A DNA stretch of 42,456 bases from a virus. A program made the translations under genes and the position numbers. Positions 2,696 through 42,193 of the stretch are shown here, piece after piece. The notes beneath the pieces are model-generated. The model made no database searches. It was not told the origin of the DNA and worked only from the letters and a program-made list of their open reading frames with translations. The DNA is taken from positions 1 through 42,456 of the IMG/VR virus record IMGVR_UViG_3300048672_001072. The stretch is one strand, 5' to 3'. Within the stretch, counting starts at the first letter, position 1; every line of letters starts with the position of its first letter.

Positions 2696-3118
2696 CTAGC
2701 GATTGTTTGTCAGCGAGGCGAGAACGTGTGCCGCTTGTGCGATCTGTCCTACCTGTCCCATGACACTGAGAACGCCATCCCGCCCTGACTGCTCTGCCCG
2801 CTTGAGGTCACGCTCGCGTGTGGCGTCTTCCTTCGCTTGCTTCTCGTCCTTACGTGCCTTCTGCTCAGCTGCCTTAGCCTGAACCTTGGCCGATTCCACT
2901 TCGTCAATCGGTTCCCGTGTGGCGACTAGGGCAACCGTGTAGGTCACTGGCAAAGTAGCGCTATTCGGCGTAGCCTTAAACTGCACACGCACGTCCTGAA
3001 GCTTGAGCGCCTTGCCCGTAGCGTCAATTGCGGCCATTCCTGTGAACATGGACACATCGTATTCCACGTCCCCGATAGTGACCTTACCGTCTACGGGTGT
3101 TACTTGCATCGTTGGCAT
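2696..3118 (-). CDS. Hypothetical protein with beta N-terminus and coiled coil
   Basis: A 140-residue protein. Residues 1-70 look beta-rich (MPTMQVTPVDGKVTIGDVEY, then LQDVRVQFKATPNSATLPVT). Residues 78-115 are a highly charged Ala/Lys/Glu stretch, AKVQAKAAEQKARKDEKQAK and onward, typical of a coiled coil. The start ATG at 3118 has an excellent ribosome-binding site, GGAAGGAAA. It is the first gene of the leftward block, directly beside the control region, so it is probably transcribed first. No family is recognised. Its DNA is visibly richer in G and C than most of the window. Confidence 0.7.
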   Translation of the reverse strand: MPTMQVTPVDGKVTIGDVEYDVSMFTGMAAIDATGKALKLQDVRVQFKATPNSATLPVTYTVALVATREPIDEVESAKVQAKAAEQKARKDEKQAKEDATRERDLKRAEQSGRDGVLSVMGQVGQIAQAAHVLASLTNNR

Positions 3119-3782
3119 ATGTCTATTTCCTTCCTACGCTTGCCCGGTATTGGGCGATAGGTTGAGCATAGGCGGTAGCGTATACGCCCATGCTCGTGTG
3201 TTCGTGCGTTAGACCGTTTCCTAGAACCCTGACGCCATTCGTGAGAATCGCGGATTTTGCGATTTTCGGCGTTTTCGCGGTTTTTGTGGGATTCATGGAA
3301 AATTCGACCGAACCGCGAGGAAGCACTTCCAGTGCCAGCCCTAAAACCCCAATGACGCAAATCCTGTGCCAGAAAAATCGGCCGGAAGTGTTCCATTTTG
3401 GAACAACCCATTTCCGTTAAACCATTGAAACCAAACGATTTACCGGAATTGTGTCAAAATAGAGCACAGTGTCGAATAATTGAACAGGGGCGAAAGTGGC
3501 TCGACGATTCAATATGAGCCGACTTTTTCGGGGCCATAGCCCAGTATACCCCACCCTGTGGAAATTGCAACCTGGGGCAACGTGGCGCGTTTTGCGGGCA
3601 TTCTGGCGACTGACCAGAACCGCAACCGACTAGCTCCTGGCCGACCGGCAACCAACGACACCCTAGCCTATACCATAGACCATAAGCATAACCTATGCCA
3701 AGGCGAAACCAAGGCGAACCGCTGTCCCATTTAGGCTACAGCCTACCATTGCCACAGTCTACACCTAATGCAAGAATCGATC

Positions 3783-3999
3783 CGGCATGGTTGTTGCATA
3801 GGTATGTTGTACTGGCATACTTATTGCAGATACTTGACGGTTGGAGCGAACCGTGCATCGAACCATTGGCACAACAATTGCATAGGCTAGGTTGATTGAC
3901 CTAATGGCACAGTCCTTGCAACACGCGCGATGCAATTGATATGCCGGAACGATCCTTGCTTGCTGGATGGTATGGCGAAGCCTGGCATAACTCGTGCCA
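3783..3999 (+). promoter_or_regulatory. Run of six sigma-54-like (-24/-12) elements
   Basis: Sigma-54 promoters follow TGGCAC-N5-TTGCW, with GG and GC ten bases apart. The plus strand holds matches at 3783 (CGGCAT-GGTTG-TTGCAT), 3813 (TGGCAT-ACTTA-TTGCAG), 3867 (TGGCAC-AACAA-TTGCAT) and 3905 (TGGCAC-AGTCC-TTGCAA). Weaker ones start at 3945 (CGGAAC-GATCC-TTGCT) and 3983 (TGGCAT-AACTC-GTGCCA). All keep GG-N10-GC. Starts are 30, 54, 38, 40 and 38 bases apart. They may be tandem promoters, or binding repeats for a phage factor that merely resemble the consensus. No activator site or downstream gene in the next 600 bases is evident. Confidence 0.45.
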
Positions 4000-4111
4000 A
4001 ATCAACGACTTGGGAGCGGTCACTGACGGTCAATGACATGGTGTGCGTGACTGCTACCAGCCTACAATATACCTATAAGTCCCATTGAGTCAGCTACTTA
4101 GCTAGATGTAT

Positions 4112-4129
4112 ATGTACGTATACGTACAT
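4112..4129. repeat. Perfect 18-bp palindrome
   Basis: ATGTACGTATACGTACAT is identical to its reverse complement, centred between 4120 and 4121. A perfect palindrome of this length is a typical dimeric-protein operator or a replication-initiation structure. It lies in the gene-less control region, just before the 10-bp tandem repeats. Confidence 0.75.
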
Positions 4130-4131
4130 CA

Positions 4132-4161
4132 AGTACCATAGAGTACCATAGAGTACCCCAG
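4132..4161 (+). repeat. Three tandem 10-bp repeats
   Basis: Two exact copies of AGTACCATAG are followed by a third with two changes (AGTACCCCAG). The core TACCATAGA also occurs once at 3671-3679. Ten-base spacing places the copies on one face of the DNA helix, as expected for cooperative binding of one protein. They begin three bases after the 18-bp palindrome. Confidence 0.7.
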
Positions 4162-4244
4162 GGACCCCCTCTGTCGCTTAGAGTCAGTCCACCCCCAGGG
4201 GTAGTCTCGGGAGAATTTTTTAAAAAATTGGTCAATTTGGTGGG

Positions 4245-4540
4245 TGTGTCATCTTCTGTGTCAGCTATTTTCAAATGACACAAGATTTTATAACTTATTG
4301 ATTATAAAGAGTTTCTGGTTGTGTCATCTTCTGTGTCTGCTTGTGTCAACTTTAAGCTCGCATGACAAAAGGCGGCTGGAGAGAGCCCTAAAAGGCTCTC
4401 CCTAGCCTGTGTCTGTGTGTCTTTCTCTTATAAGGAGGCTTAACACAGCGACACAAAAATTGATAACTATAATGAATAGAATAGGTTATAGAAAATAGTC
4501 AATGAGTGTGTCACTAAAAACGCGACACGCCGTTGACACA
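4245..4540. repeat. Cluster of TGTGTC/GACACA boxes with an 18-bp direct repeat
   Basis: TGTGTC occurs at 4245, 4257, 4320, 4332, 4342, 4408, 4416 and 4507, and its complement GACACA at 4277, 4450 and 4535: eleven copies in about 300 bases. Two pairs sit inside an exact 18-bp direct repeat, TGTGTCATCTTCTGTGTC, at 4245-4262 and 4320-4337, 75 bases apart. Repeated boxes in mixed orientation just before two promoters suggest binding sites for a replication initiator or regulator. Confidence 0.65.
4381..4400 (+). other. Hairpin without a U tract
   Basis: GAGAGCC and GGCTCTC form a perfect 7-bp stem around a CTAAAA loop. No T run follows on either strand, so it is not a standard intrinsic terminator. 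It lies within the TGTGTC box cluster. Confidence 0.45.
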
Positions 4541-4562
4541 ATAAATAATAACTACATATAGT
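4533..4562 (+). promoter_or_regulatory. Sigma-70 promoter
   Basis: TTGACA at 4533-4538, an 18-base spacer, and TATAGT at 4557-4562. It lies directly upstream of a second, better promoter. The -35 element includes the last GACACA box of the cluster, so a protein bound there could control it. Confidence 0.55.
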
Positions 4563-4571
4563 ATATTTCAC

Positions 4572-4600
4572 TTGACAAACCACAAGAGTTGTGGTATACT
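4572..4600 (+). promoter_or_regulatory. Strong sigma-70 promoter with operator-like inverted repeat in the spacer
   Basis: TTGACA at 4572-4577 and TATACT at 4595-4600 are separated by exactly 17 bases. The spacer contains a perfect 7-bp inverted repeat, ACCACAA-GAG-TTGTGGT (4579-4595), placed where a dimeric repressor would block RNA polymerase. It should drive the membrane peptide gene at 4639 and probably the ferredoxin gene. Confidence 0.75.
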
Positions 4601-4638
4601 GCTTTTTAACTTGGTCAGTCATTCATCAGGAGGAGAAA

Positions 4639-4722
4639 ATGGCAATTATTCAGTTTATCGGTATTATGGTCTTTGTAGCGATGTTTATTAATATGTTTTT
4701 CCCTAAATTGGTGTCAAAATAG
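4639..4722 (+). CDS. 27-residue hydrophobic membrane peptide
   Basis: The frame MAIIQFIGIMVFVAMFINMF ends FPKLVSK. It is essentially one transmembrane helix with a short basic tail. The ribosome-binding site AGGAGGAG stands five bases before the ATG, and a near-consensus promoter lies about 40 bases further up, so expression should be high. It is the first gene of the rightward block. A role in altering the host membrane or early takeover is possible, but nothing in the sequence proves it. Confidence 0.7.
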   Translation: MAIIQFIGIMVFVAMFINMFFPKLVSK

Positions 4723-4744: not shown

Positions 4745-5092
4745 ATGCCGCTAATGATAACCGACGGTTGCATCTCGTGTGACGCCTGCGTGCCTGTGTG
4801 CCCGAACAAAGGCATCCGCAAGGGCAAGTCGGTGTATGTGATTGACCGGGATGCGTGCACGGAGTGCGTTGGCTTCTTCAACACGCAGCGGTGTGTCGAG
4901 GTGTGCCCGATGGACTGCTGTGTCTTCATTCCTGGTATGGTGTTGACCGAAGAGGCCTTGTTCGAGCGTGCCAAGGCACTCCACGCTAACTCTGAGCAGC
5001 AGCCGACACTCACGGCTCTTACGTCTCATTTTCGTAAACCTGTTCACCGCTTTTGGTTGCTACAATTAATACGATTAATATTTTCAAAATAA
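4745..5092 (+). CDS. YfhL-type 2[4Fe-4S] ferredoxin
   Basis: A 115-residue protein. It starts MPLMITDGCISCDACVPVCP, which aligns from the first residue with bacterial YfhL-family ferredoxins. Cluster one is C9, C12, C15 and C19; cluster two is C38, C41, C50 and C54 with the family's longer gap, each ending in CP. The segment around residues 67-82 also matches the end of normal YfhL proteins (about 86 residues). About 30 residues follow, ending in a basic, hydrophobic helix (FWLLQLIRLIFSK) absent from the family. No clear ribosome-binding site precedes the start. The first 300 bases are visibly GC-rich compared with flanking AT-rich DNA, suggesting recent gain from a host. It likely carries electrons to an unidentified partner. 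Confidence 0.85.
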   Translation: MPLMITDGCISCDACVPVCPNKGIRKGKSVYVIDRDACTECVGFFNTQRCVEVCPMDCCVFIPGMVLTEEALFERAKALHANSEQQPTLTALTSHFRKPVHRFWLLQLIRLIFSK

Positions 5093-7181: not shown

Positions 7182-7499
7182 ATGAATTTAGCAGGATGGC
7201 TCTCGGCAGTTGAGAAGATTGCTCCCATTGCTCTAGCATTGACACCACTAGCCCCCATTGCTCCATTCGTAGGATTGGGAATTAAACTAGCTGAGCAGAT
7301 CCAGGGTGCTGATAGTGCTACAAAGCTGGCAGTGGCAACGCAGATTGTTAATGTTGGTATTCAGGCGACGAACACTCAGGCTGGTAAAGTTATTGTAGAC
7401 CCAACAGTAGTTAATCAGGCACTACAGAGTGGTATTGGTACAGTTGTAGCTGTGGCTAATCTCATTCATAAGAATTCAGACCCAGCTCCAGTTAAGTAA
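7182..7499 (+). CDS. Small alanine-rich hydrophobic protein
   Basis: A 105-residue protein. Residues 10-35 (VEKIAPIALALTPLAPIAPF) are hydrophobic with prolines, and the rest alternates amphipathic helices (KLAVATQIVNVGIQATN). It may be membrane-associated, and a holin-like role is possible, but it is far from the lysozyme gene and lacks a clear holin topology. The stop overlaps the next ATG. Function is unknown. Confidence 0.62.
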   Translation: MNLAGWLSAVEKIAPIALALTPLAPIAPFVGLGIKLAEQIQGADSATKLAVATQIVNVGIQATNTQAGKVIVDPTVVNQALQSGIGTVVAVANLIHKNSDPAPVK

Positions 7500-7885
7500 T
7501 GGGTTATAAAGATCTCGATAAAGCAAAACAATATAATAAAGAATATTATCGTAAACACGCTAAAAAGATGCGTGCGAGATCTGATGAATGGTACAAGAAA
7601 CATCCAGAAGTAGTTAAAGATAAAGAATTAAAAAAGAAGTTTGGAATTTCTTTTAATGATTATCAGAAGTTATTAGAGAATCAATCTGGAGTTTGTGCAA
7701 TCTGTCATCGCAGTGAAACTTATACAAAAGCTGGAAAGATAAAAGCACTAAGTGTAGATCATAATCATATTACAGGAAAGATAAGAGAACTTTTATGCTC
7801 TCCTTGTAATGTAGTTTTGGGTTTAGTAGAAGAAGATCCTTCAAGACTTGAAGCCTTAATTGCCTACCTAGAAAAGCATAAGTAA
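7499..7885 (+). CDS. Recombination endonuclease VII-like homing nuclease
   Basis: A 128-residue protein. Residues 66-104 hold the family signature: CAIC (C66, C69), then DHNH (87-90), then LLCSPCN (C100, C103). The four cysteines bind zinc and the His residues of the beta-beta-alpha-metal fold form the active site. The N-terminus is a basic helix rich in Lys/Tyr. In T4 the family resolves branched DNA; free-standing copies between phage structural genes usually act as homing endonucleases. It lies just upstream of the terminase large subunit, overlapping it at TAATG, and its DNA is more AT-rich than the neighbours, both consistent with an inserted mobile gene. Confidence 0.88.
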   Translation: MGYKDLDKAKQYNKEYYRKHAKKMRARSDEWYKKHPEVVKDKELKKKFGISFNDYQKLLENQSGVCAICHRSETYTKAGKIKALSVDHNHITGKIRELLCSPCNVVLGLVEEDPSRLEALIAYLEKHK

Positions 7886-9336
7886 TGAAATGGACACAAC
7901 TTCCTATTGCTGAACCACTTAAATTTCATTATTATCAGGATGCTTTTTGGAATGCCCGTAGACAGCGGCTTTGTTTCGCTTGTAAAATTGAGTTTAAAAA
8001 TCCTCCGAATCTTGTCTGTCCAAATTGTGGTGGTAAAGGGAAAAGAACCTTTCATCGGTTTGCACTTCTAAGTGGTAGACGTGGAGGTAAAACTAGGGCC
8101 GGAGCAATTGCAGCTGTTGAAGAAGCTTGTATTCCTAATTCTGTTATTTGGTGCTGTGCTCCCACAAATCCTAAACTCCATCGGTATGTTTTGCCAGCTT
8201 TGCAAGAATTAATTCCTGAGGATTGGGTATCTTCTTGGAGTACTGAATATCTTGATCTTAGACTTAAGAATGGTACACTAATTCATTTACAAACATTAGA
8301 AGATCCAGATCAGGGTCGTGGACAAGGTTTAGATTATCTTTGGATTGATGAAGCCTGCGAACTATCAGAACAGACTTGGCATGTCATTCGTCCATCACTA
8401 ACGGAACGTCGTGGTGCAGCAGTATTCACATCATCTCCAAGGTCATTCGATTGGGTTTGGAAAAATTTTTATCTTAAGGCGGAAGAAAATACTCCAGGTT
8501 ATTGGGCATGTCGATATGCCACACAAGAAAATCCAATTATTTCGGCCGAGGAAATTGCAGATGCCAAAGCATCAATGCCTCCCACAATGTTTCAACAAGA
8601 GTATCTCGCAGACTTTGTGGTCTTTGAAGGAGCAGTATACGGCGGCGCTGTTGATCCCCAGATTCTACGAACCCTTGAGCAGATTAAACAGATCATTCCA
8701 GAATGGCCAGAGATTGCATCTTGGCGTCAAGTTCTGGTCGGTATCGATACTGGAGCGGACCACCCCTTTGGAGCGGTGAAGTTAGTATCAACTGAGCTTG
8801 GGTTGGTTGTTGTTGGAGAATATCTAGAGAGACATCGATCATTTATTCAACACGCTGGTTCGATTAAGATGTTGGCAGCTTCAAGTAATACTAGATATGC
8901 TATCAATCGTAATGAACGTCAGCCAATGATTGAGTTAGCTCAGCATCAGATTTATTGCCAACCTTCTGAGAACGATGTCGTAGCAGGTACTGAGAGAGTT
9001 AAGAGTTGGCTCCACGCTAAGCAATTATGGTTTGTTGAATCTCTTTGCCCAATGACGATTAAGCAGTGTAAGAGTTATCGATGGGCACCTGACAAAGCTA
9101 AGGATGGCCAAGTTCGTAAGGAGAAGGTTTATAAATTAGAGGATGAGCTTCCTGATTGTTTAAGATATGCAGTAATGACTTGGCCGATGCTTCCAACTGC
9201 TCCTCCTGCTTCAACTACACCAATTAGAGACTTGAGTGGATTAGATCCTGAGATTAGAGAGAGTATAAAGAGGATGAGGAAGCTTGATAGGGAGCCTGTT
9301 TTAGAAAGTAATACGGTTGGAGATTTTTGGAACTGA
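7885..9336 (+). CDS. terL: Terminase large subunit
   Basis: A 483-residue ATPase and nuclease that packs DNA into the prohead. The Walker A motif is SGRRGGKTR (63-71), Walker B with catalytic Glu is LDYLWIDEA (149-157), and the coupling motif is FTSSPR (181-186). The nuclease domain starts with GIDTG, D288, and ends with acidic residues around DELPDCLRY. A zinc-ribbon-like insertion (CxxC at 30-33 and CPNC at 45-48) sits just before Walker A, which is unusual. It overlaps the homing-nuclease gene at the 5' end. The family assignment is secure. Confidence 0.95.
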   Translation: MKWTQLPIAEPLKFHYYQDAFWNARRQRLCFACKIEFKNPPNLVCPNCGGKGKRTFHRFALLSGRRGGKTRAGAIAAVEEACIPNSVIWCCAPTNPKLHRYVLPALQELIPEDWVSSWSTEYLDLRLKNGTLIHLQTLEDPDQGRGQGLDYLWIDEACELSEQTWHVIRPSLTERRGAAVFTSSPRSFDWVWKNFYLKAEENTPGYWACRYATQENPIISAEEIADAKASMPPTMFQQEYLADFVVFEGAVYGGAVDPQILRTLEQIKQIIPEWPEIASWRQVLVGIDTGADHPFGAVKLVSTELGLVVVGEYLERHRSFIQHAGSIKMLAASSNTRYAINRNERQPMIELAQHQIYCQPSENDVVAGTERVKSWLHAKQLWFVESLCPMTIKQCKSYRWAPDKAKDGQVRKEKVYKLEDELPDCLRYAVMTWPMLPTAPPASTTPIRDLSGLDPEIRESIKRMRKLDREPVLESNTVGDFWN

Positions 9337-9701: not shown

Positions 9702-12020
9702 ATGTTCCCACCTAATACCTTCTCAACTGGAGCACAACCTGGACTTCCACCAGGAGGTCAGTACTCCATTGATGATCCCTCTCAGGCTCCTCAGCAACCA
9801 GTAGCTAATCCTTGGGATGAAGCTAAGTTGCTTGATATGTTCAACACATTCAAGCGAGAGAGTACTGAATATCGATGGATTTGGGAACGTGAATGGCTTA
9901 GAGATTTATTTTATGTAATGAATCGCCAGTGGATTACCTTTCATCCAACTCGTAGGGAGTGGGTTGATAAAAGGCTTCAGAAATGGGTTCCTAGACCAGT
10001 CACCAATAAAATGGCAGAAACCCTTCAGGCTATTAGGACAAATCTAGGAGCAATCAATCTTGCTGTTAAGGTAAGACCTGTTGGAGATGATGCTGAGTCC
10101 ATAGCAGCTGCAGAAGTATCTGACCAAATGTCCCCCATGATTCATGAGGAACATATGATGGATCAGAACATGAGAGAGGCCGACTTCTGGCTCATTGTTT
10201 GTGGTAATGCCTGTCTTCAGATCTCATGGGATAAGGATGTCAGATGGAATCGGGTATTTGTTCCCCATGAACAGTGTATAACTTGTGGAAATGTAGCTCC
10301 CCCTCAGGCCATTGTAGCAGCTGGTCAGCATTGTCCAGTTTGTGGTGGAACATTTCTTCAGAAAGCAATGGGACCTCCCGGCCCTCTGGGACCAGATGGT
10401 CAACCAACCCCTTCGCAACCAATTGGTGAATGGGTGAGTTTTGGTAGGGGTAAGACTACGGCACTTAGTCCATTTGAATATGCTTTCCCACCCAATGTTA
10501 CTAGATTTGATGAGTTACCATATATCATTAGATTACGATGGCGTGATAAGCATTGGTTCGAGGCAAACCATCCAGAATTGATCCCAAAGCTCACTTGGGA
10601 GAAGTCTCCTACTGATCGATCACTTCAAATCTATAAATCTCTAGCTTTAACCAATGATGTTGGCACAGGATCACAATTCGCCTATCTAGGTGCTGCTGGA
10701 GCCCATACAGTTGAGGGTGTTACTGAATATGAACTCTGGATGCGCCCAACTCCTGAATATCCTAAAGGTCTGGTAATGAGGGTGGTTGGTGATCAGCAGC
10801 CAACACTTCTCCAAGCACCCGAAGAAGGATTACCTGGACCAATTCCCTATACTGACATTGAAGGAAATCCAATCTTCCCATTCGAGCACGCTCAATATGA
10901 ACACATTGGTGGAAGATTATATGGTCGCAGTGCGTTATCACCACTCATTCAGAAGCAGGATCAGCTTAATCAATTAGATTCATTAGTTCAGCTTTGTGTT
11001 CAACGTACTGCCAACCCAGCTTGGGTTATCCCAGAGAATGCTGGTATTGAGAATATCACTGGTGAGCCTGGACTTATTATCAAATGGAACGTCCTAGCTG
11101 CTGCCGGTCAGGGTAAACCTGAGAGGATTCCAGGTGTTCCTCTCGATGCTTCCCTCTTTGAATTCAGAGCACAGATTATAAAGGACATTGAAGATCTAAG
11201 TGGTGCCTTTGATATTATTAAAGGTCAAAAGCCATCAGGTGTTGAAGCCTTCTCAGCCCTCCAACTTCTAGTTGAAAGAAGCCAATCACGCTTCACTTCA
11301 GTCTTCCAATCTCGTGGTGAGATGTATCGTAGATGGTTTACTACTGCTCTTGAATTAGAAAGACAATTTGGTCCACAGCAACGCACTTGGGCTGTGGTTG
11401 GCCCAAATCGTGGTTATACATTTAGGCACTTTGAAAATGCTCAACTCCAAGGTCAAGTTAATGTTCAAGTTGAAGATGGAAGTAATATGCCAAAAACTGC
11501 ACTTGGTAAGCGTGCGGCTATTGAGCAAGCTAATCAATTACAACTACTCGATCCAAATGATCCTGATCAGAAATACGCACTACTTACCCAGTTTGGCCTC
11601 TCAGATTTGGTACCTTCTCTAAATTATCATGTCCAGGCTGCCCTTCAGATTCAAGACGCCTTCGAGAAGTGGGCAGAACAACCAACTGGTCCTTCCCCAC
11701 TTGTGGTGAAGCCTTGGTTTGATCCCCACATTCATTGGATTGAGCATGTAAAGTGGTTGAACACTGATAAGATGAGAGAACTTCTAGCATCTAATCCCAT
11801 GCTAGAACAAGTTATTGACATGAATCTTCAACAGCTTCAGATGGCTATTAATCCACCTCAGCCAATTGGACCAGATGGTCAACCAATTCAGCAAGCTCCA
11901 CCACAAGGTGGAGCCTTAGCTATGAAGAACAGTAACCAGAATAGTGGATCAACTAAATCAATTCCAAAAGGAAATCAACAATCACCCAACGCAGGACCGG
12001 GTGGTATGGGTCCTCACTAA
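9702..12020 (+). CDS. Portal protein
   Basis: A 772-residue protein directly downstream of the terminase genes. The N-terminal part (RREWVDKRLQKWVPRPVTNK, then MAETLQAIRTNLGAINLAVK) and a long helical stretch with DIEDLSGAFDIIKGQ match the large portals of podovirus-like phages, which are longer than the usual 450-550 residues. An inserted zinc-binding loop is visible: C192, C195, C211 and C214 (QCITC, HCPVC). The C-terminal 130 residues are Gln/Pro/Gly-rich and likely disordered. The portal ring is the DNA entry channel at one capsid vertex and docks the terminase. Confidence 0.88.
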   Translation: MFPPNTFSTGAQPGLPPGGQYSIDDPSQAPQQPVANPWDEAKLLDMFNTFKRESTEYRWIWEREWLRDLFYVMNRQWITFHPTRREWVDKRLQKWVPRPVTNKMAETLQAIRTNLGAINLAVKVRPVGDDAESIAAAEVSDQMSPMIHEEHMMDQNMREADFWLIVCGNACLQISWDKDVRWNRVFVPHEQCITCGNVAPPQAIVAAGQHCPVCGGTFLQKAMGPPGPLGPDGQPTPSQPIGEWVSFGRGKTTALSPFEYAFPPNVTRFDELPYIIRLRWRDKHWFEANHPELIPKLTWEKSPTDRSLQIYKSLALTNDVGTGSQFAYLGAAGAHTVEGVTEYELWMRPTPEYPKGLVMRVVGDQQPTLLQAPEEGLPGPIPYTDIEGNPIFPFEHAQYEHIGGRLYGRSALSPLIQKQDQLNQLDSLVQLCVQRTANPAWVIPENAGIENITGEPGLIIKWNVLAAAGQGKPERIPGVPLDASLFEFRAQIIKDIEDLSGAFDIIKGQKPSGVEAFSALQLLVERSQSRFTSVFQSRGEMYRRWFTTALELERQFGPQQRTWAVVGPNRGYTFRHFENAQLQGQVNVQVEDGSNMPKTALGKRAAIEQANQLQLLDPNDPDQKYALLTQFGLSDLVPSLNYHVQAALQIQDAFEKWAEQPTGPSPLVVKPWFDPHIHWIEHVKWLNTDKMRELLASNPMLEQVIDMNLQQLQMAINPPQPIGPDGQPIQQAPPQGGALAMKNSNQNSGSTKSIPKGNQQSPNAGPGGMGPH

Positions 12021-12789: not shown

Positions 12790-13608
12790 ATGGCCGACGA
12801 ATCAGTTCAGCAGACATTAACACCGCAGGTAGACGCGACACCATCTACACCAGCGCCCGCTACAGCGACACCAGTAGCACCCGCTCCGGCTGTGGCGACA
12901 CCAGCAGCCACTACGCAGGCACCCGCGACAGGGGCACTACAGGAAGGTTGGGTTCCAAGTTACCGTATCCGTGAAGCACGAGAAGCAGCAGTTCGTCAGG
13001 CAAATGAACAGTTTGCTCAACGTGAGGCGCAGATTCGTGCAGAAGCAGATCGATATCAGGCCCAAGTCCGTGCGTTAACAGGTCAGCAACCTCCTCAGAA
13101 TCCAGAAATTGAGATTGTAAAGAATCAGTTTAAAGGGCTCTATCCAGGGCTCGCTACACTTGAGGAAAAAGCAGCTCAGCTTGAAGCTCTCCTTGAGAGA
13201 GCTGGGGATTTGGAGAATCAGAATAATCATTATTGGCAGGATTATGGCCGAAGAAATGTAGATAATTTGTTCAAGCTCGCTGAGACATCTTTGGGTTCAC
13301 AGCTCACCGATGAAGCAAAGCGTCAGCTTCATTCTTCATTTACAGGCTTCGTTCAGTCTTCTCCAGAATTGACTGCTCGTTATGCTCAAGATCCTTCAAT
13401 TGTAGAGGATTTCTGGAAGGTATTCACTTCAAGCTTTATCGACCCCGCTCGTCGGGTAGCTTCGGCAACAACGGTAGCTAGAGTAGCTGGCAACATTCCA
13501 CAGGATACTCCTAGTGGTTCGGTTCCAGTCTCAGCACCAATTGCTCCGAAGAATCTAGACGAGAGGGCCGCTGCAGCTTGGCAACTATTTCAACATAAAA
13601 AAGGTTAA
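12790..13608 (+). CDS. Probable capsid scaffold protein
   Basis: A 272-residue protein. Residues 10-50 are Pro/Ala/Thr-rich and disordered; residues 58-100 are a long charged helix (REAREAAVRQANEQFAQREA), then more helices follow (LEEKAAQLEALLERAGDLEN). This helical, acidic architecture and the position immediately before the major capsid gene, with only an inserted endonuclease gene between, are typical of scaffold proteins that guide capsid assembly and are later removed. No sequence motif proves it. Confidence 0.65.
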   Translation: MADESVQQTLTPQVDATPSTPAPATATPVAPAPAVATPAATTQAPATGALQEGWVPSYRIREAREAAVRQANEQFAQREAQIRAEADRYQAQVRALTGQQPPQNPEIEIVKNQFKGLYPGLATLEEKAAQLEALLERAGDLENQNNHYWQDYGRRNVDNLFKLAETSLGSQLTDEAKRQLHSSFTGFVQSSPELTARYAQDPSIVEDFWKVFTSSFIDPARRVASATTVARVAGNIPQDTPSGSVPVSAPIAPKNLDERAAAAWQLFQHKKG

Positions 13609-14072
13609 TGGTGGCACATATCTCGTTAAAGGATAAACTCTCTGAACCAGAAAAAGCATACCTAGCTGGTATATTTGATGGAGAAGGTACGATTGGTTAT
13701 TATGACTTTCGTAACCGCCACGAATCAACAGTAATGATAACTAATGCCGATCCAAGACTTATGAACTGGATTATGGATACAATTGGTTATGGTAATGTAC
13801 ACACTGTAAAGAAAGGTTATACAAGACGGAAGCATGTTGTTCATCATTGGCGTATTTCTAATAAACCTCGTGTGAAAGAGTTTTTAGAGGCAATCTATCC
13901 ATACTTAATTGTCAAGAGAGATCAAGCAGAACTTTTATTATCGCTCTGGAATCTTGAAAATCCAGGAAAGAATAAAATTACCTCTGAGGTGAAATCTCGT
14001 CGTGATCAAGTTGTGAATAAATTAAAACTTCTAAAGACATCACACTTTGAACTAGCGGAAACGATTCAATAA
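13608..14072 (+). CDS. LAGLIDADG homing endonuclease
   Basis: A 154-residue protein. The motif LAGIFDGEG (residues 19-27) carries the catalytic acidic residues, and strands follow (TIGYYDFRNRHESTVMITNA). A single motif means that it works as a homodimer. It cleaves a long target site to copy its own gene into alleles lacking it. The gene is free-standing, starts inside the stop codon of the scaffold gene (TAATGG) and ends 10 bases before the capsid gene, so it is a mobile gene tucked between two essential structural genes. Confidence 0.85.
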   Translation: MVAHISLKDKLSEPEKAYLAGIFDGEGTIGYYDFRNRHESTVMITNADPRLMNWIMDTIGYGNVHTVKKGYTRRKHVVHHWRISNKPRVKEFLEAIYPYLIVKRDQAELLLSLWNLENPGKNKITSEVKSRRDQVVNKLKLLKTSHFELAETIQ

Positions 14073-14082
14073 GGAATCACAG

Positions 14083-15486
14083 ATGTCAACATGGATTAAT
14101 ACAAAAGTTGTCATTGATATGGCAACAGGAGATATCCTAGAAAATGAAGGTTATCTCTATTCTGGCCCAGTAGCAGAAGCTGCCGGGGCAGATAAACAGG
14201 CTCTCGATGCCATCTTCAAGGAAGTCTTTGAAGACGGCGTGGCTGAGGGCGTAAACAATAAGAATCCCCTTCGTGATCTTATCAAGACCGAACGGGTGCC
14301 CTTCCGGGGGCGAGAAATCGTTAGGCTAGCACATACTGGCCGTAACGTTTCACCAATGTTCGTTGGTGAAGATTCAGCGTTTGCTGATGCTGGAAACCAG
14401 AGTTATTCACGTATGTTCGTGGATCAGCGGAAGCTGATGTCACGGCTTAGAATGACTTGGGAAGTCATGCAGGACTCAACCTCCAATGAGGGTGCTTTCA
14501 TTAGTGCTCGTAAGTCGGAGATGCAGTACCTAATTGATGACATGTCCCGTAGAGATGAGTACGCGCTCAACTCTGATGGTCGTGGAGTTCTAGCAGTTGG
14601 TAATAGTGGTACCTATAATACAACTACCCTTACCCTAAAGAATCCAGGCGGGATTACAAATGCTAATTTCGGCAATAGATTCCTTTCAGTAGGTATGTTC
14701 ATCGGTGCAGTAGATCCTAATACAGGAAATCTTCGTACCTCAATTCGTAAGGTAACAGCTGTTTCAAATGGTGGAACAACTGTAACTCTAGATGCATCAA
14801 CTCAGACAGGTTGGGCAGATGGCGATTTCATCGTTCAGGTTGCCAACTCATCTGTAACTGATATTCTAGATACCTCCTATGAACATGCATGGTGGGGTGT
14901 AATGGCCCTTGTTGATGATGGTACATATCGTGCGAGCTACTATGGCTTGGATCGTACACAGATTCCAGCCTACTCAAGTTATGTAACTGCTTCAACAGGT
15001 GCCTTATCAACTGATCTCATTCAGCGTGTATCAGATATCGTTGATCAGAAGTTGAACGGTAAGATTAGTAATATTCTTTGCCATCACTCAACACGTCGGC
15101 TGGTAATTCAGCTTACAGATGCTGATCGTCGTTATATGGGTGCTTCGCTCAATAAGCCAGATCCGGGGACGGCTGCTTTTAAGCAGGGTGATATTCCATT
15201 CGGTGAAATTCCCGTCCGCGCTCTAAGGGATTTCCCATTAGATGTCATGATGTTCCTTGACGTGGCTAATGCTGGTTTTAGAGAGTATGTCTCTGAGCCA
15301 GGCAAGTGGGTAGATGAAGATGGTAGCGTGCTATGGCGTGTTGGTACCGGCACATCCGGTCGAGATGCGTTTGAGGCATGGTATCGTATGCGTAAGCAGT
15401 ATTTCCTAGAGTATCCAGCATTCTGTGCTAGACTTGATGGAATCACTGGCCAGTCGTTAATCGTCCAGAGAGCAGCTGGTTCATAA
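14083..15486 (+). CDS. Major capsid protein
   Basis: A 467-residue protein in the position after portal and scaffold. Segments typical of phage capsid subunits include the extended N-terminal arm (IDMATGDILENEGYLYSGPV), KSEMQYLIDDMSRRDEYALN, a beta insertion around residues 170-250, and the C-terminal KQYFLEYPAFCARLDGITGQ. I infer an HK97-like fold from length and position; no signature motif exists. Ribosome-binding site AAGGAAT precedes ATG 14083. A good terminator follows it, as expected for the most abundant virion protein. Confidence 0.82.
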   Translation: MSTWINTKVVIDMATGDILENEGYLYSGPVAEAAGADKQALDAIFKEVFEDGVAEGVNNKNPLRDLIKTERVPFRGREIVRLAHTGRNVSPMFVGEDSAFADAGNQSYSRMFVDQRKLMSRLRMTWEVMQDSTSNEGAFISARKSEMQYLIDDMSRRDEYALNSDGRGVLAVGNSGTYNTTTLTLKNPGGITNANFGNRFLSVGMFIGAVDPNTGNLRTSIRKVTAVSNGGTTVTLDASTQTGWADGDFIVQVANSSVTDILDTSYEHAWWGVMALVDDGTYRASYYGLDRTQIPAYSSYVTASTGALSTDLIQRVSDIVDQKLNGKISNILCHHSTRRLVIQLTDADRRYMGASLNKPDPGTAAFKQGDIPFGEIPVRALRDFPLDVMMFLDVANAGFREYVSEPGKWVDEDGSVLWRVGTGTSGRDAFEAWYRMRKQYFLEYPAFCARLDGITGQSLIVQRAAGS

Positions 15487-27297: not shown

Positions 27298-27450
27298 ATG
27301 GATTGGTCGTTGAAGCAGAAACATAGTACAATGTCAAGTGCAAGGATTATGCCATGCCATTTTTGGTGTAGGATCTTCGGGGCCAAGCAATCACAAGCCG
27401 AAGCCGAAGCAGCTGTTAAACTACCTCTGCTTACTATTCATGACATATAA
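27298..27450 (+). CDS. 50-residue hypothetical protein
   Basis: The frame MDWSLKQKHSTMSSARIMPC continues HFWCRIFGAKQSQAEAEAAV and ends KLPLLTIHDI. AAGGA lies 12 bases before the ATG. It sits right after the fibre gene, partly in the GC-rich stretch, so it may have arrived with the fibre head, for example as a chaperone; that is speculation. It could also be chance. Apart from this frame the gap 27283-27469 shows nothing. Confidence 0.38.
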   Translation: MDWSLKQKHSTMSSARIMPCHFWCRIFGAKQSQAEAEAAVKLPLLTIHDI

Positions 27451-36532: not shown

Positions 36533-37171
36533 ATGAAACCGGTTCTGGCCTTCCTAATAGGTGTCAGTCTCCTCTTCTTAGGTATGACTGCCTATTCAAA
36601 ACCTCCCGCCTATTTAGACGCGGTTAAGCCTCTTGTTTGGCAGGACGAGAATGATCATCAAACCTATCCTCATTGTACAACCTTTAATATCAATTCTGAG
36701 AAACATTACTGGTTAACTGCTGCTCATTGTATTGATGATTATAGTCTTGATATTGCTATGATTGAAAATCATATCACTAAGGTTGTCAAAATCGATCAGG
36801 ATAAAGATTTAGCAATTTTATTCTCTAACGTTCAATCACCTGATTTACAATTATCTTCTTATAGCCCAAAGTGGGGCCAGGAAATTCATTCTGTTGGTTT
36901 TATGAATGGTGATTCCTTTCAAACGGTTTTCTGGGGTAAAATAGCCAATCCTCTAGCTAATCCAGGTGGGTGGAGACCTTATGTAATTGTTGGGATGACG
37001 GGTGGTGGTGGATCGAGTGGAGGGCCATTTCTAACAACCGATGATAAAGTTATCAGTGTGATGGAAGCTGGATTTGGTGGGGGATTTGGAACTACTATTC
37101 ATGAGATTAGTGGTGGTGTTCCTTATGATGTAGTACGTGATTTTACAAGTGGTTTCTGGCGAGGACAATAA
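36533..37171 (+). CDS. Second secreted trypsin-like serine protease
   Basis: A 212-residue protein. Residues 1-22 are a signal peptide (MKPVLAFLIGVSLLFLGMTA). The triad reads H65 in LTAAHC, D92 in KDLAIL and S162 in GGSSGGPF. It lacks a PDZ domain and is shorter than DegP-type enzymes, so it is a bare protease domain acting outside the cytoplasm. It shares fold but little sequence with the protease encoded at 20304, so it may be an independent gain or an old duplicate. It is five bases after the phosphoesterase gene, under the same promoter. Confidence 0.86.
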   Translation: MKPVLAFLIGVSLLFLGMTAYSKPPAYLDAVKPLVWQDENDHQTYPHCTTFNINSEKHYWLTAAHCIDDYSLDIAMIENHITKVVKIDQDKDLAILFSNVQSPDLQLSSYSPKWGQEIHSVGFMNGDSFQTVFWGKIANPLANPGGWRPYVIVGMTGGGGSSGGPFLTTDDKVISVMEAGFGGGFGTTIHEISGGVPYDVVRDFTSGFWRGQ

Positions 37172-37668
37172 TGATTGGGGAACTCGTTAAAGATTTATCA
37201 AACCGCACGCACGGAAAAGCTTCTACATACGGACTAGGTTGTCGTTGTTTATTATGTAAGGAAGCCAAATCAATAGCTGCTAGGCAACATTATCTGCGTT
37301 ATAGCGAAAAGATAAAGGCTTATGAACGTGAATATAATCTAAAAAATAAAGAAAAAATTAGTATTAAAAATAAACGAGATCGAGCAGCTAATCCAAACTT
37401 AAGTAGAATAAGGCACTTAAAAACTAACTATAATCTGACACTGGATGAATATATTAAATTATTAGCTGTCCAAGATGGTGTATGTTTTTTGTGTAAAAAG
37501 TCTTGCCCAACCTATAAATGGTTAGCAGTTGATCATAATCACAAGACAAACAAAATTCGTAAACTCTTATGTATAAAATGTAATGTTGGTGTAAGCAGCT
37601 TAGAGTGGTTTAGAGAAATAAGTATTTTAGATTCTGCTTTAACCTATATAGATACTGAGGGATTATAA
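37171..37668 (+). CDS. Recombination endonuclease VII-like nuclease, second copy
   Basis: A 165-residue protein. C105/C108 (CFLC), DHNH (121-124) and LLCIKCN (C134, C137) match the endonuclease VII signature. The N-terminus, GLGCRCLLCKEAKSIAARQH, adds a CxCxxC metal motif and a Lys-rich helical linker. It differs clearly from the copy at 7499, so it is not a recent duplicate. Start and stop overlap neighbouring genes at TAATG. A homing or branched-DNA resolving role is likely. Confidence 0.85.
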   Translation: MIGELVKDLSNRTHGKASTYGLGCRCLLCKEAKSIAARQHYLRYSEKIKAYEREYNLKNKEKISIKNKRDRAANPNLSRIRHLKTNYNLTLDEYIKLLAVQDGVCFLCKKSCPTYKWLAVDHNHKTNKIRKLLCIKCNVGVSSLEWFREISILDSALTYIDTEGL

Positions 37669-39306: not shown

Positions 39307-39395
39307 TTAGAACTCCATTTAAACCATAGGCATGGTGACAAATAAGTGAAATGATCTACATGTTTTCTATCTGGATGACAGCTTGGAATTTTCAA
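39300..39395 (-). CDS. 31-residue micro-protein with CHPDRKH motif
   Basis: A frame starts at TTG 39395, inside the stop codon of the polymerase gene (TCTTGA), with GGGGAG eight bases upstream. It reads MKIPSCHPDRKHVDHFTYLS, then PCLWFKWSSKW. The CHPDRKH...C...KW pattern resembles a short Cys/His motif, C-x-HPDRxHxAxGLCxxCY, seen in many small phage proteins, probably zinc-binding. Its stop overlaps the start of the nucleotidase gene. Confidence 0.5.
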   Translation of the reverse strand: MKIPSCHPDRKHVDHFTYLSPCLWFKWSSKW

Positions 39396-42193
39396 GACAT
39401 TTCTCCCCATCGAGGCCCGATTTTAGAATCCACATCAATAACTAAATGCTCACCAAGGTTGTAACTTTTAGGTAACATTAGTTCAGGAACAGGTCTAGTC
39501 ATTTCTTCTTTCATAATTGATTTTACAATATCAAGTAATCCTTTTGGTACATCACTTACAAGTGAGTCATGTACTTGAAGTCTTAGCCATTGTCCAGCCT
39601 CTTCAAATCGTTTAAAATAGAGTCTCAACATTGCTTCCTTAATTACCGCAGCTGCAGTAGATTGCGGCAAGAATGCCAAAACCTTATTAGAATCATTTCC
39701 AGGTTTTCTTTTCCATTTACCATTCTCTTTAGTAAAAGTAAAAACTTGTGAAAAACGATGAATATAATTAAATGGGTTTTTTAGATAACCATCTTTATCT
39801 GCTTGAAGCTGTGTAGATAGTTGCCACTTTTTAATGTATGGACAAACCTCAAAATAAATTCCTTGAAGTCTTTCAGCATCTTTTATTGTTGGGAAGGCAT
39901 CAGGTTCTGCAAGGTGCATCTTTTTAGGAGAACCACCATAACCACTTAAATGGGTTGTACGTTTTGAGCTATTATAAACATCTTGTACATGTTGATCCTT
40001 TGATTTTTTAATCTCACTAAAATAGGCTTTGAGATCAGCATCAGACCATTTTAAATCAGCTGGTCTACCCAACACATGCGATGCCAAAAATGAGTGAATA
40101 CCTAATTTAGCCAGCCTAATGTAATCAGCCGATCCCGCGAACCAACCTACTAGTACTGCCTCAATTGCACTAAAATCTAATTCTAGTAGTAGATTTCCTG
40201 GACTAGCAACAATCAAATTTCTAATAATGGTTTGCAGATCCTCCTGCTTTTTTGCTCTAGGAAGATTTTGCATATTAGGTTGCATTGATGCTAGGCGAAG
40301 CGTAGATGGGTTATGGCTATAAATACAATGAATCCGGCCATCTTTACCAACTGGCATACCGCCACGAATTCTACCAGCTTTCTGGGTTACACCTATATAT
40401 GTTCCAAGTAATTTACTATACTCGCGGTACGCTAAAATCTTCGGATAAAGTTTGTCGTTGGGATATTTCTTTATAAGTTTCTTGAGAGCATCTTCATCAA
40501 ATGTAACCTTTTTCTCTTTGTGGTTTAGAATGGCCTGTTGTTTCAAGGCTTTCTGGTAGTTTGATAGGCTTACTTTTGAGACCTTAAACTCTAAAGGCTT
40601 GGCCCACAAAAATAAGGTTCCTTTTGACTCGATAATCGTCGCATCTTCACATATGTTGTCGAATCCAAGTTTACGTTTCCTAGCTGATACGGGTTTGAAG
40701 TGTGCCTTTTTGGGATTCTCAATTCCACAGATTGAACACTTCTTGATAGTTCCTTCTTTCTCAATTTGCACCATCCCCTCAACATTTTTGGGAGTCTTTT
40801 TAAATATCTTAAACCTTCTAGCCTCTTGAGGAACCGAGGCTTCCATTGAAACCTCAACCTCATCAAGCAGTGTTGAGAGCTTAGTCTCAGCTTCAGCCCT
40901 CATTACCTCATCTCTTAAAACTCCCTTTCCGGACATATATCCAAGAACAGTATTAAGCTGTACAACATGCCTCTCAAAGACATGCCATTGATTATTTTTG
41001 ATGAGGTCAGCTTTAATTCCTTGGAAACACCTTAAAGTTATATCTGCGTCCATTGCATTATATCCAGCCGGATCGTTATCAGAAGTATACTTCCAAGCTG
41101 GAACGTCATGACAATAAAATGGTGCTACAAACCCTAGACCCTTTGGTAAAGCTGAATTAAGGACATGCCACATCAACATAACATCTAGCCTGTCCCCATT
41201 CACTGGGACCTTAGCTAGAATTCTTGGAAGATCGTATTGATCCGAGTTGAAACCCACTTTAGGAAAAGATGTTCCAAATAAATCTTCAAGGGAGGCCAGA
41301 TAATCACTGCGCCAAGGTACAGATATAGCGATACCAGGAAGATAGCTAAATGAGCATCGAAGAATAGTCCAACTCTCGTCATCATCATCTGCAACCTCAG
41401 ACTCATCTTTTCCTTGCTTATATGGAGTTTCGATATCAAACGATAAATGGTTTTCTTCTGGATGTTCCAAGGCATAACGTTTATAATCCGTAACCCATTG
41501 GGCGAACGTAGCAGGATCGGGATCTCGTAAATAAGTTGGTTGATGAAATTTAAGACCATTTTCAGCAATCTCAAGGGCTCTCTTGAAGCCAAATTGGAAT
41601 ATTGGTAGGAGATGACTATTGCCTCTCATTAAATATGAGGGATGATCAACTGCTACAACAAATGCCTGATACTTATCAGACCAAAATGGATAACATAAAT
41701 AATCATGTCTCATAATGAGGGACTTGTCATCAAGGCCCATCACTCTTTTGAATGCTGTTCTTCCCAGAGTGATAATAGTAAAATGCTTTCCACTCTCTTT
41801 ACAAGTCTGCTGCATTTCAGTGATAGTCGCGTCAAGAAATGGAGCACAATGACTAATAGCCTCTGCTTCATACGCCATCTTAACGAGTTTATTTTCGGGC
41901 GGGCGACAAGATAAGACATTATGAACTTTAAACCCTTCCCTTTCAATTCCAACCCTTGCTAGGTTTTGGAAGGTGTAATAACCAGCTTTACCTACTAAGG
42001 GCATCCCCTCATTAGCTTCATTTTCACCAGCTGCCTCAGCTACGATTAGGACACCATTCGCTCCAGTTCCAGAAGCTGGGACGAAGCCTTTACCGCCGCC
42101 CCATAGAGGACACGACTCACATACTTCCTTAGGTTTTGGCAGCATTATATTCTCTATCGAACGGTCCCGTTTGACTATTATGAAGGATTTCAT
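39392..42193 (-). CDS. UDG-like / 3'-5' exonuclease / DNA polymerase A fusion
   Basis: A 933-residue fusion. Residues 20-215 form a family-4-type uracil-DNA glycosylase domain: four cysteines for a [4Fe-4S] cluster (C25, C28, C96 in CRPP, C116), VAEAAGENE (51-59) and HPSYLMR (184-190). Residues 245-395 are a proofreading exonuclease: FDIE (D253, E255), FNSDQYD (315-321) and YNAMD (378-382). Residues 590-933 are a family A polymerase: motif A LDFSAIE (672-678), motif B with KRTTHLSGYGG, motif C LQVHDS (872-877; most relatives have HDE). A zinc-type insertion (C486, C489, C515) lies between. Phage SPO1 polymerase has a similar UDG-like N-terminus. It replicates the phage genome. Confidence 0.92.
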   Translation of the reverse strand: MKSFIIVKRDRSIENIMLPKPKEVCESCPLWGGGKGFVPASGTGANGVLIVAEAAGENEANEGMPLVGKAGYYTFQNLARVGIEREGFKVHNVLSCRPPENKLVKMAYEAEAISHCAPFLDATITEMQQTCKESGKHFTIITLGRTAFKRVMGLDDKSLIMRHDYLCYPFWSDKYQAFVVAVDHPSYLMRGNSHLLPIFQFGFKRALEIAENGLKFHQPTYLRDPDPATFAQWVTDYKRYALEHPEENHLSFDIETPYKQGKDESEVADDDDESWTILRCSFSYLPGIAISVPWRSDYLASLEDLFGTSFPKVGFNSDQYDLPRILAKVPVNGDRLDVMLMWHVLNSALPKGLGFVAPFYCHDVPAWKYTSDNDPAGYNAMDADITLRCFQGIKADLIKNNQWHVFERHVVQLNTVLGYMSGKGVLRDEVMRAEAETKLSTLLDEVEVSMEASVPQEARRFKIFKKTPKNVEGMVQIEKEGTIKKCSICGIENPKKAHFKPVSARKRKLGFDNICEDATIIESKGTLFLWAKPLEFKVSKVSLSNYQKALKQQAILNHKEKKVTFDEDALKKLIKKYPNDKLYPKILAYREYSKLLGTYIGVTQKAGRIRGGMPVGKDGRIHCIYSHNPSTLRLASMQPNMQNLPRAKKQEDLQTIIRNLIVASPGNLLLELDFSAIEAVLVGWFAGSADYIRLAKLGIHSFLASHVLGRPADLKWSDADLKAYFSEIKKSKDQHVQDVYNSSKRTTHLSGYGGSPKKMHLAEPDAFPTIKDAERLQGIYFEVCPYIKKWQLSTQLQADKDGYLKNPFNYIHRFSQVFTFTKENGKWKRKPGNDSNKVLAFLPQSTAAAVIKEAMLRLYFKRFEEAGQWLRLQVHDSLVSDVPKGLLDIVKSIMKEEMTRPVPELMLPKSYNLGEHLVIDVDSKIGPRWGEMS

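Follow-up and report, generated by a model that had tools for sequence, protein, structure and literature searches.

The window, which is the whole 42,456-base stretch of DNA analysed here, is an IMG/VR record of class linear and represents a tailed-phage genome or a large part of one (Table 1). A divergent intergenic region holding an array of sigma-54-like elements separates leftward genes (first ATG at 3118) from a rightward operon that begins at ~4640. No plausible gene lies in the array region, and the array is thus not explained by a gene, as an earlier note on this DNA had stated. A nucleotide search of cultured phages with the whole array region gave no match. Relatives of the 140-aa leftward protein were sought and none were found, and the search for relatives of the DNA polymerase matched one fragment. 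Early in the rightward operon (4745-5092, +) is a ferredoxin with two 4Fe-4S motifs. Its best annotated match is YfhL-like, and such genes are rare in cultured phages (5 records). Likely homing endonuclease genes are located at 7499-7885, 13608-14072 and 37171-37668; these candidates comprise two related endonuclease VII-type proteins and one protein that looks LAGLIDADG-like by eye and is flanked by head genes. At 4241-4554 there are direct repeats, rich in AT, that have GACACA / TGTGTC cores (families D1-D5 and D13), and the 12-bp GTGTCAAAATAG recurs at 3451 and 4711. These repeats and the GTGTCAAAATAG copies are a possible origin or operator region.

Table 1. Genes, sigma-54-like elements and sigma-70-type promoters of the window.
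Feature	Position	Strand	Remarks
Divergent intergenic region holding the array	3119..4640	no strand	from ORF list and sequence
Element TGGCACAGGATTTGCG	3356..3371	-	1 mismatch, 10.3 bits; directed at leftward operon
Element TGGCATAGGTTATGCT	3685..3700	-	15.8 bits; upstream of array
Sigma-54 element 1, CGGCATGGTTGTTGCA	3783..3798	+	1 mismatch, 20.9 bits
Sigma-54 element 2, TGGCATACTTATTGCA	3813..3828	+	exact, 17.8 bits
Marginal element TGGAGCGAACCGTGCA	3842..3857	+	3 mismatches, only 3.4 bits
Sigma-54 element 3, TGGCACAACAATTGCA	3867..3882	+	exact, 21.9 bits; top site of the window
Sigma-54 element 4, TGGCACAGTCCTTGCA	3905..3920	+	exact, 18.4 bits
Element CGGCATATCAATTGCA	3931..3946	-	1 mismatch, 10.0 bits; convergent with element 4, absent from earlier note
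Weak element CGGAACGATCCTTGCT	3945..3960	+	3 mismatches, 7.4 bits; fifth of earlier note
Element TGGCACGAGTTATGCC	3984..3999	-	16.3 bits; replaces sixth of earlier note (3983, +, 7.5 bits)
Sigma-70-type promoter, TTGACA-18-TATAGT	4533..4562	+	11/12; before rightward operon
Sigma-70-type promoter, TTGACA-17-TATACT	4572..4600	+	11/12; TG before -10
Terminase	7885-9336
P22-like portal	9702-12020
Major head protein	14083-15486
Lone sigma-54 element	27339..27354	-	exact, 17.3 bits; in a short gap among rightward genes, opposed to them
Family A DNA polymerase, N-terminal uracil-DNA glycosylase superfamily domain	39392-42193	-

The earlier note had described six sigma-54-like promoter elements in a row on one strand. 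All six are present, at 3783 (1 mismatch), 3813, 3867 and 3905 (exact) and, in weaker form, at 3945 (3 mismatches) and 3983 (2 mismatches). Each has GG-N10-GC, and the start-to-start spacings are exactly 30, 54, 38, 40 and 38. The array is, however, not confined to one strand. The plus-strand site at 3983 is outscored by the overlapping minus-strand site (Table 1), and further minus-strand sites are found at 3931, 3685 and 3356. The array is thus made up of four strong plus-strand sites and two to four minus-strand sites, with 3945 (+) and 3842 (+) marginal; the latter, at spacings of 29 and 25 from elements 2 and 3, may be a site that has decayed. The four best elements are all directed at the rightward operon. 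The same-strand spacings of 30, 54 and 38 and the one convergent pair at 26 agree with the arrays of other phages described below, and the window sites have GG and GC ten bases apart within TGGCAYR-N4-TTGCW. The palindromic site at 3984-3999 prompted a reading of the elements as dyad operators (GCA-N7-TGC), which was dropped since the other sites keep the asymmetric TGGCAY / TTGCA.

For scoring we used a matrix derived from 730 sites in other phages, with the window excluded; the training set was gathered by the core motif, so the core columns are partly circular. Between 3700 and 4100, six sites reach at least 10 bits against 0.037 expected per dinucleotide shuffle, and 0/1000 shuffles reached six. 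The claim that the array is non-random thus holds. Eight of the nine top-scoring sites on both strands of the 42 kb fall in the intergenic region, the ninth being that at 27339 (-). Chance and simple repeats as the source of the array are ruled out by the shuffles and by the N6 control given below.

Two sigma-70 promoters close to consensus (4533 and 4572) precede the rightward operon. With these promoters in place and the array two-stranded, the description of the elements as a tandem, one-strand promoter run is not supported. The inverted repeat CCACAAGAGTTGTGG in the spacer of the second sigma-70 promoter may be an operator, and relatives have similar TGTGGT-type -10 regions in the same place. 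Two terminase relatives (L005, L006) end before the array. An alignment query led to seven more (L313-L319), of which L314 and L315 cover the region well, and counterparts of the 4572 promoter were recognised by eye in both. These relatives, with a terminase 72-74% identical, keep the sigma-70 promoters, while the sigma-54 sites go from about six in the window to one in L315 and none convincing in L314. Conservation in relatives, which the earlier note had named as a check, was not found in these two. Turnover of the array is rapid.

Arrays of this kind are widespread in uncultured phages. A search of IMG/VR contigs for exact elements 10-40 bp apart returned pairs in at least 119 viral stretches, and three elements in a row likewise in at least 119. 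The arrays, of 2 to 21 elements and often in both orientations, occur in at least 119 contigs of about 40 gene-content clusters; the contigs searched are fragments, and the gene calls follow a simple rule based on the longest ORF. Against the at least 119 stretches with the N5 spacer, an N6 control gave 12 across the whole collection, and these few matches mostly resemble repetitive sequence. In 31 longer viral records, which were selected for arrays, there are 168 exact sites (table sum) vs. 3 for the reversed pattern. The densest case is a 147-kb phage contig (L045:5660-6445) with 21 elements within 0.8 kb and others scattered over 6.5 kb. In cultured phages, a composite search with common element sequences matched four records, which have either single sites or one convergent pair; a convergent pair is present in Pseudomonas phage vB_PpS_SYP. 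The T5-like Vibrio phages KIT04 and VF16 (L310:6001, L312:6001) have single exact elements in common, followed ~255 bp further along by a minus-strand site with one mismatch; the noncoding gap concerned is close to where the pre-early region ends. The remark that sigma-54 control is rare in phages thus seems true for the cultured phages sampled, but not for the uncultured collection. We found no description of sigma-54 site arrays in phages in the open-licence literature searched; the elements themselves are already known and their arrangement in arrays is new.

Prokaryote genomes (257 Gb, 84,980 species) contain 7 triple arrays vs. at least 119 in viral contigs, and all 7 cellular genomes encode RpoN (PF04552). 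One triple (L220) is itself on a phage contig inside a Sphingobacteriales MAG. Three (L221, L224, L225) appear to be repeats within coding or repetitive DNA, and two (L223, L226) immediately precede a gene in which all three RpoN domains are present. In the latter two, both Anaerolineales MAGs, three sigma-54 elements directly precede rpoN (L223:5805-5902, L226:1980-2076), which suggests autoregulation of RpoN by an array. In the seventh case, eight sigma-54-like elements are found upstream of an uncharacterised gene (L222:341-580) on a 383-kb contig binned as Chitinophagales. In a Fibrobacter MAG (L225:90-318), a 55-bp tandem repeat has TGGCACGATTTTTGCA in each copy and lies beside apparent trp genes, with two more sigma-54-like sites nearby. 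The assembly of Nostoc linckia z4 (L224) has a Sigma54_DBD match within a 449-aa frame and may include contamination; cyanobacteria are usually said to lack sigma-54.

The elements resemble sigma-54 sites in more than the motif by which they were collected. At positions left free in the searches, Y precedes TGGCA in 91% and R occupies position 7 in 98% (187 loci, one site per locus for the first). These positions reproduce the published consensus, TGGCA(T/C)(G/A)nnnnTTGCA (PMC11704786). Departures at G2, G3, T13, G14 and C15, the positions called important by E. coli sigma-54 ChIP-seq (PMC4591121), are seen in 4/186 one-mismatch array members vs. 27/86 non-array sites (p 1e-11), and substitutions of A16 are to T in 114/121. 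Spared core positions and the change of A16 to T are the substitution pattern of real sigma-54 sites. A single consensus, free positions included, is found in about 40 gene-content clusters, whose GC ranges between 0.32 and 0.64. Host sigma-54 is the sole ligand known to us that explains one consensus across unrelated phages, and the array elements are, with high probability judging from sequence, host sigma-54 (RpoN) binding sites. The resemblance to sigma-54 sites noted earlier is accordingly genuine, and the free positions, the substitution pattern and the arrays upstream of rpoN make binding by host sigma-54 very probable. No phage-encoded RpoN or activator was found in the fetched phage DNA, which consists of partial genomes. 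A GAFTGA-type enhancer-binding protein was not found in these partial genomes either, and a host protein could serve.

The arrangement of elements follows recurrent rules. Same-strand neighbours are rarely <25 bp apart, and their spacing peaks at 25-29 and 36-38; distances of <17 bp are rare between convergent neighbours, as are those of <22 bp between divergent ones. With one count per cluster, same-strand spacing has a 10.5-bp periodicity in half-turn phase (R 0.29 vs. 0.08 for a smoothed null), a moderate signal that owes much to the 26-bp peak. Among 201 arrays of 2 to 21 elements each, 112 are uniform and 89 mixed in orientation, and 14/58 clusters have abutting convergent pairs. Arrays with callable flanks are mostly in divergent intergenic regions. 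In codirectional gaps, uniform arrays run 8 against transcription and 5 with it, as judged by the simple gene caller.

The largest clade with arrays carries genes for a terminase small subunit (terS), an M15 peptidase, terminase and portal. For an unbiased sample we fetched 80 loci by the terminase-small-subunit protein alone, not by the motif, and 65 of these had at least 700 bp upstream. In the 65 loci the N5 spacer gave 151 exact and 207 near-exact elements, and N3, N4, N6 and N7 gave no exact ones. At least one element is present in 48/65, roughly between -225 and -645 relative to the gene, and the number per locus ranges from 0 to 9. In one subclade, conservation of the core bases (0.88) is higher than that of spacers and inter-site bases (0.74), with the gene at 0.92. 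The elements have a direction in this family: 376/472 point away from terS, and 40 arrays point wholly away vs. 1 wholly toward it. A TTGACT-17-TATACT sigma-70 promoter precedes the terminase small subunit in 61/61 loci; on the opposite side, a near-consensus sigma-70 promoter is found in only about 10/61.

Unlike other sigma factors, sigma-54 gives a holoenzyme whose closed complexes are stable and stay silent until triggered by an enhancer-binding protein. Because these complexes are inert until an activator arrives, a packed array could hold polymerase silently. We propose that the phage would gather host RpoN sites, for the factor alone or for the RNA polymerase holoenzyme, in its main intergenic control region, where the packed array would hold polymerase without transcribing. 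The array would act by occupancy, sequestering or parking host sigma-54 (and core enzyme), an effect that would grow with the number of phage copies; it may also influence the neighbouring divergent promoters. We give this sequestration or parking of host sigma-54 polymerase a little under even confidence. It takes RpoN as the probable ligand, supposes selection for binding rather than initiation, and would place the benefit in titration or parking. The number of sigma-54 molecules in E. coli is of the order of one hundred. The genome of this bacterium has over 250 sigma-54 sites (PMC4591121). With these figures we estimate that an effect could be had from tens of phage copies, each carrying six sites.

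Several observations favour occupancy over initiation. Abutting convergent pairs recur, and in such pairs the start site of either element would lie within the other. The sigma-70 promoters are constant while the arrays come and go, which also argues for sequestration rather than a cluster of promoters. Orientation is mixed in 89/201 arrays, same-strand spacing is rarely <25 bp and has a half-turn phase, core bases are conserved above the spacers, and triples are virus-specific. Counting against occupancy are the terS-family arrays, which would fit promoters for the opposite operon, and the scarcity of near-consensus sigma-70 promoters on that side. The direction of the window's four best elements and the reduction of the array in the closest relatives covering the region also count against it. 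The terS bias could also come from descent and tandem duplication. Titration would call for many sites relative to the copies of the ligand, with no fixed orientation or distance to genes; the arrays have 2 to 21 elements and are often mixed in orientation, but one clade is directional.

This directional bias keeps a promoter reading open. The arrays may be clusters of functional sigma-54-dependent promoters, in which several elements better capture a scarce holoenzyme and a host enhancer-binding protein, e.g., one activated by stress, triggers them, so that phage transcription would be tied to the state of the host. We consider this a serious possibility, if a doubtful one. The elements match the promoter consensus, the arrays with callable flanks lie mostly between divergent genes, and both the terS-family arrays and the best elements of the window face an operon. 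Mixed arrays and abutting convergent pairs are not as expected of such promoters, however, nor are the uniform arrays that oppose transcription in codirectional gaps; the same operons are already preceded by sigma-70 promoters, and the motif of an enhancer-binding protein was not found in the partial genomes fetched. A local switch or insulator is improbable in comparison. Bound silent polymerase would here block or separate divergent sigma-70 promoters until displaced, with no global titration. The position of arrays between divergent operons is consistent with this, as is the apparent autoregulation by occupancy at rpoN in the two Anaerolineales MAGs, and sigma-54 can act as a repressor at a site that overlaps another promoter (as cited in PMC4591121). 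In the window and the terS family, though, hundreds of bp separate the arrays from the sigma-70 promoter recognised for the rightward or terminase operon, and roadblock repression was not seen at E. coli intragenic sites (PMC4591121).

The earlier note had offered as its alternative a repeat family bound by a phage initiator that merely resembles the sigma-54 consensus. In this case the array would be iteron-like, bound by a phage-encoded initiator or repressor, and its likeness to -24/-12 elements accidental. Mixed orientation and regular spacing are found in initiator and repressor arrays, the arrays lie in the main control region, and some appear tandem-duplicated. A recognition sequence specific to each lineage was not found, however; the consensus is common to phages unrelated by gene content and over a wide range of GC, and it recurs in bacteria directly before rpoN. 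One specificity across unrelated phages is unexpected of a phage protein, and we regard this reading as very improbable.

Phages disarm host transcription with proteins. If sequestration is true, the same end would be reached without protein, by arrays of sites for a host sigma factor. Tentatively, phages of many unrelated lineages may carry DNA sponges that immobilise host sigma-54 RNA polymerase during infection. With similar reserve we suggest that this would be a takeover of host transcription by DNA only, a selected function of packed bidirectional arrays that was previously undescribed. If the promoter reading is true, phages would depend widely on the host regulator of nitrogen, motility and envelope stress. 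Under either reading, the arrays are a recognisable signature in uncultured phages that would point to RpoN-carrying hosts.

Among known systems, the -24/-12 promoters of sigma-54 are like the arrays in sequence, in GG-N10-GC spacing, in sparing G2, G3, T13, G14 and C15, and in having A/T at 16. Such promoters have their own start site and leader, whereas the arrays have 2 to 21 elements ~26 bp apart, often in both orientations and frequently abutting. The datA locus of E. coli is a chromosomal cluster of high-affinity sites that titrates DnaA, an initiator. It resembles the arrays as a cluster of sites for a scarce host regulator, but it is chromosomal and acts on an initiator, and we know of no sigma-factor or phage equivalent of such titration loci. 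Plasmid and phage iterons and mycobacteriophage stoperators likewise consist of short asymmetric sites arrayed in a control region, but are bound by a protein of the element itself. Iterons and stoperators differ in sequence between lineages, whereas the phage sigma-54 arrays keep one consensus across unrelated phages. The intragenic sigma-54 sites of E. coli are likewise many and conserve the important bases; many are bound in silent form, and a decoy role has been mentioned as a possibility (PMC4591121). Those sites are scattered, single and chromosomal (PMC4591121), whereas the phage arrays are clustered, viral and mostly in noncoding DNA.
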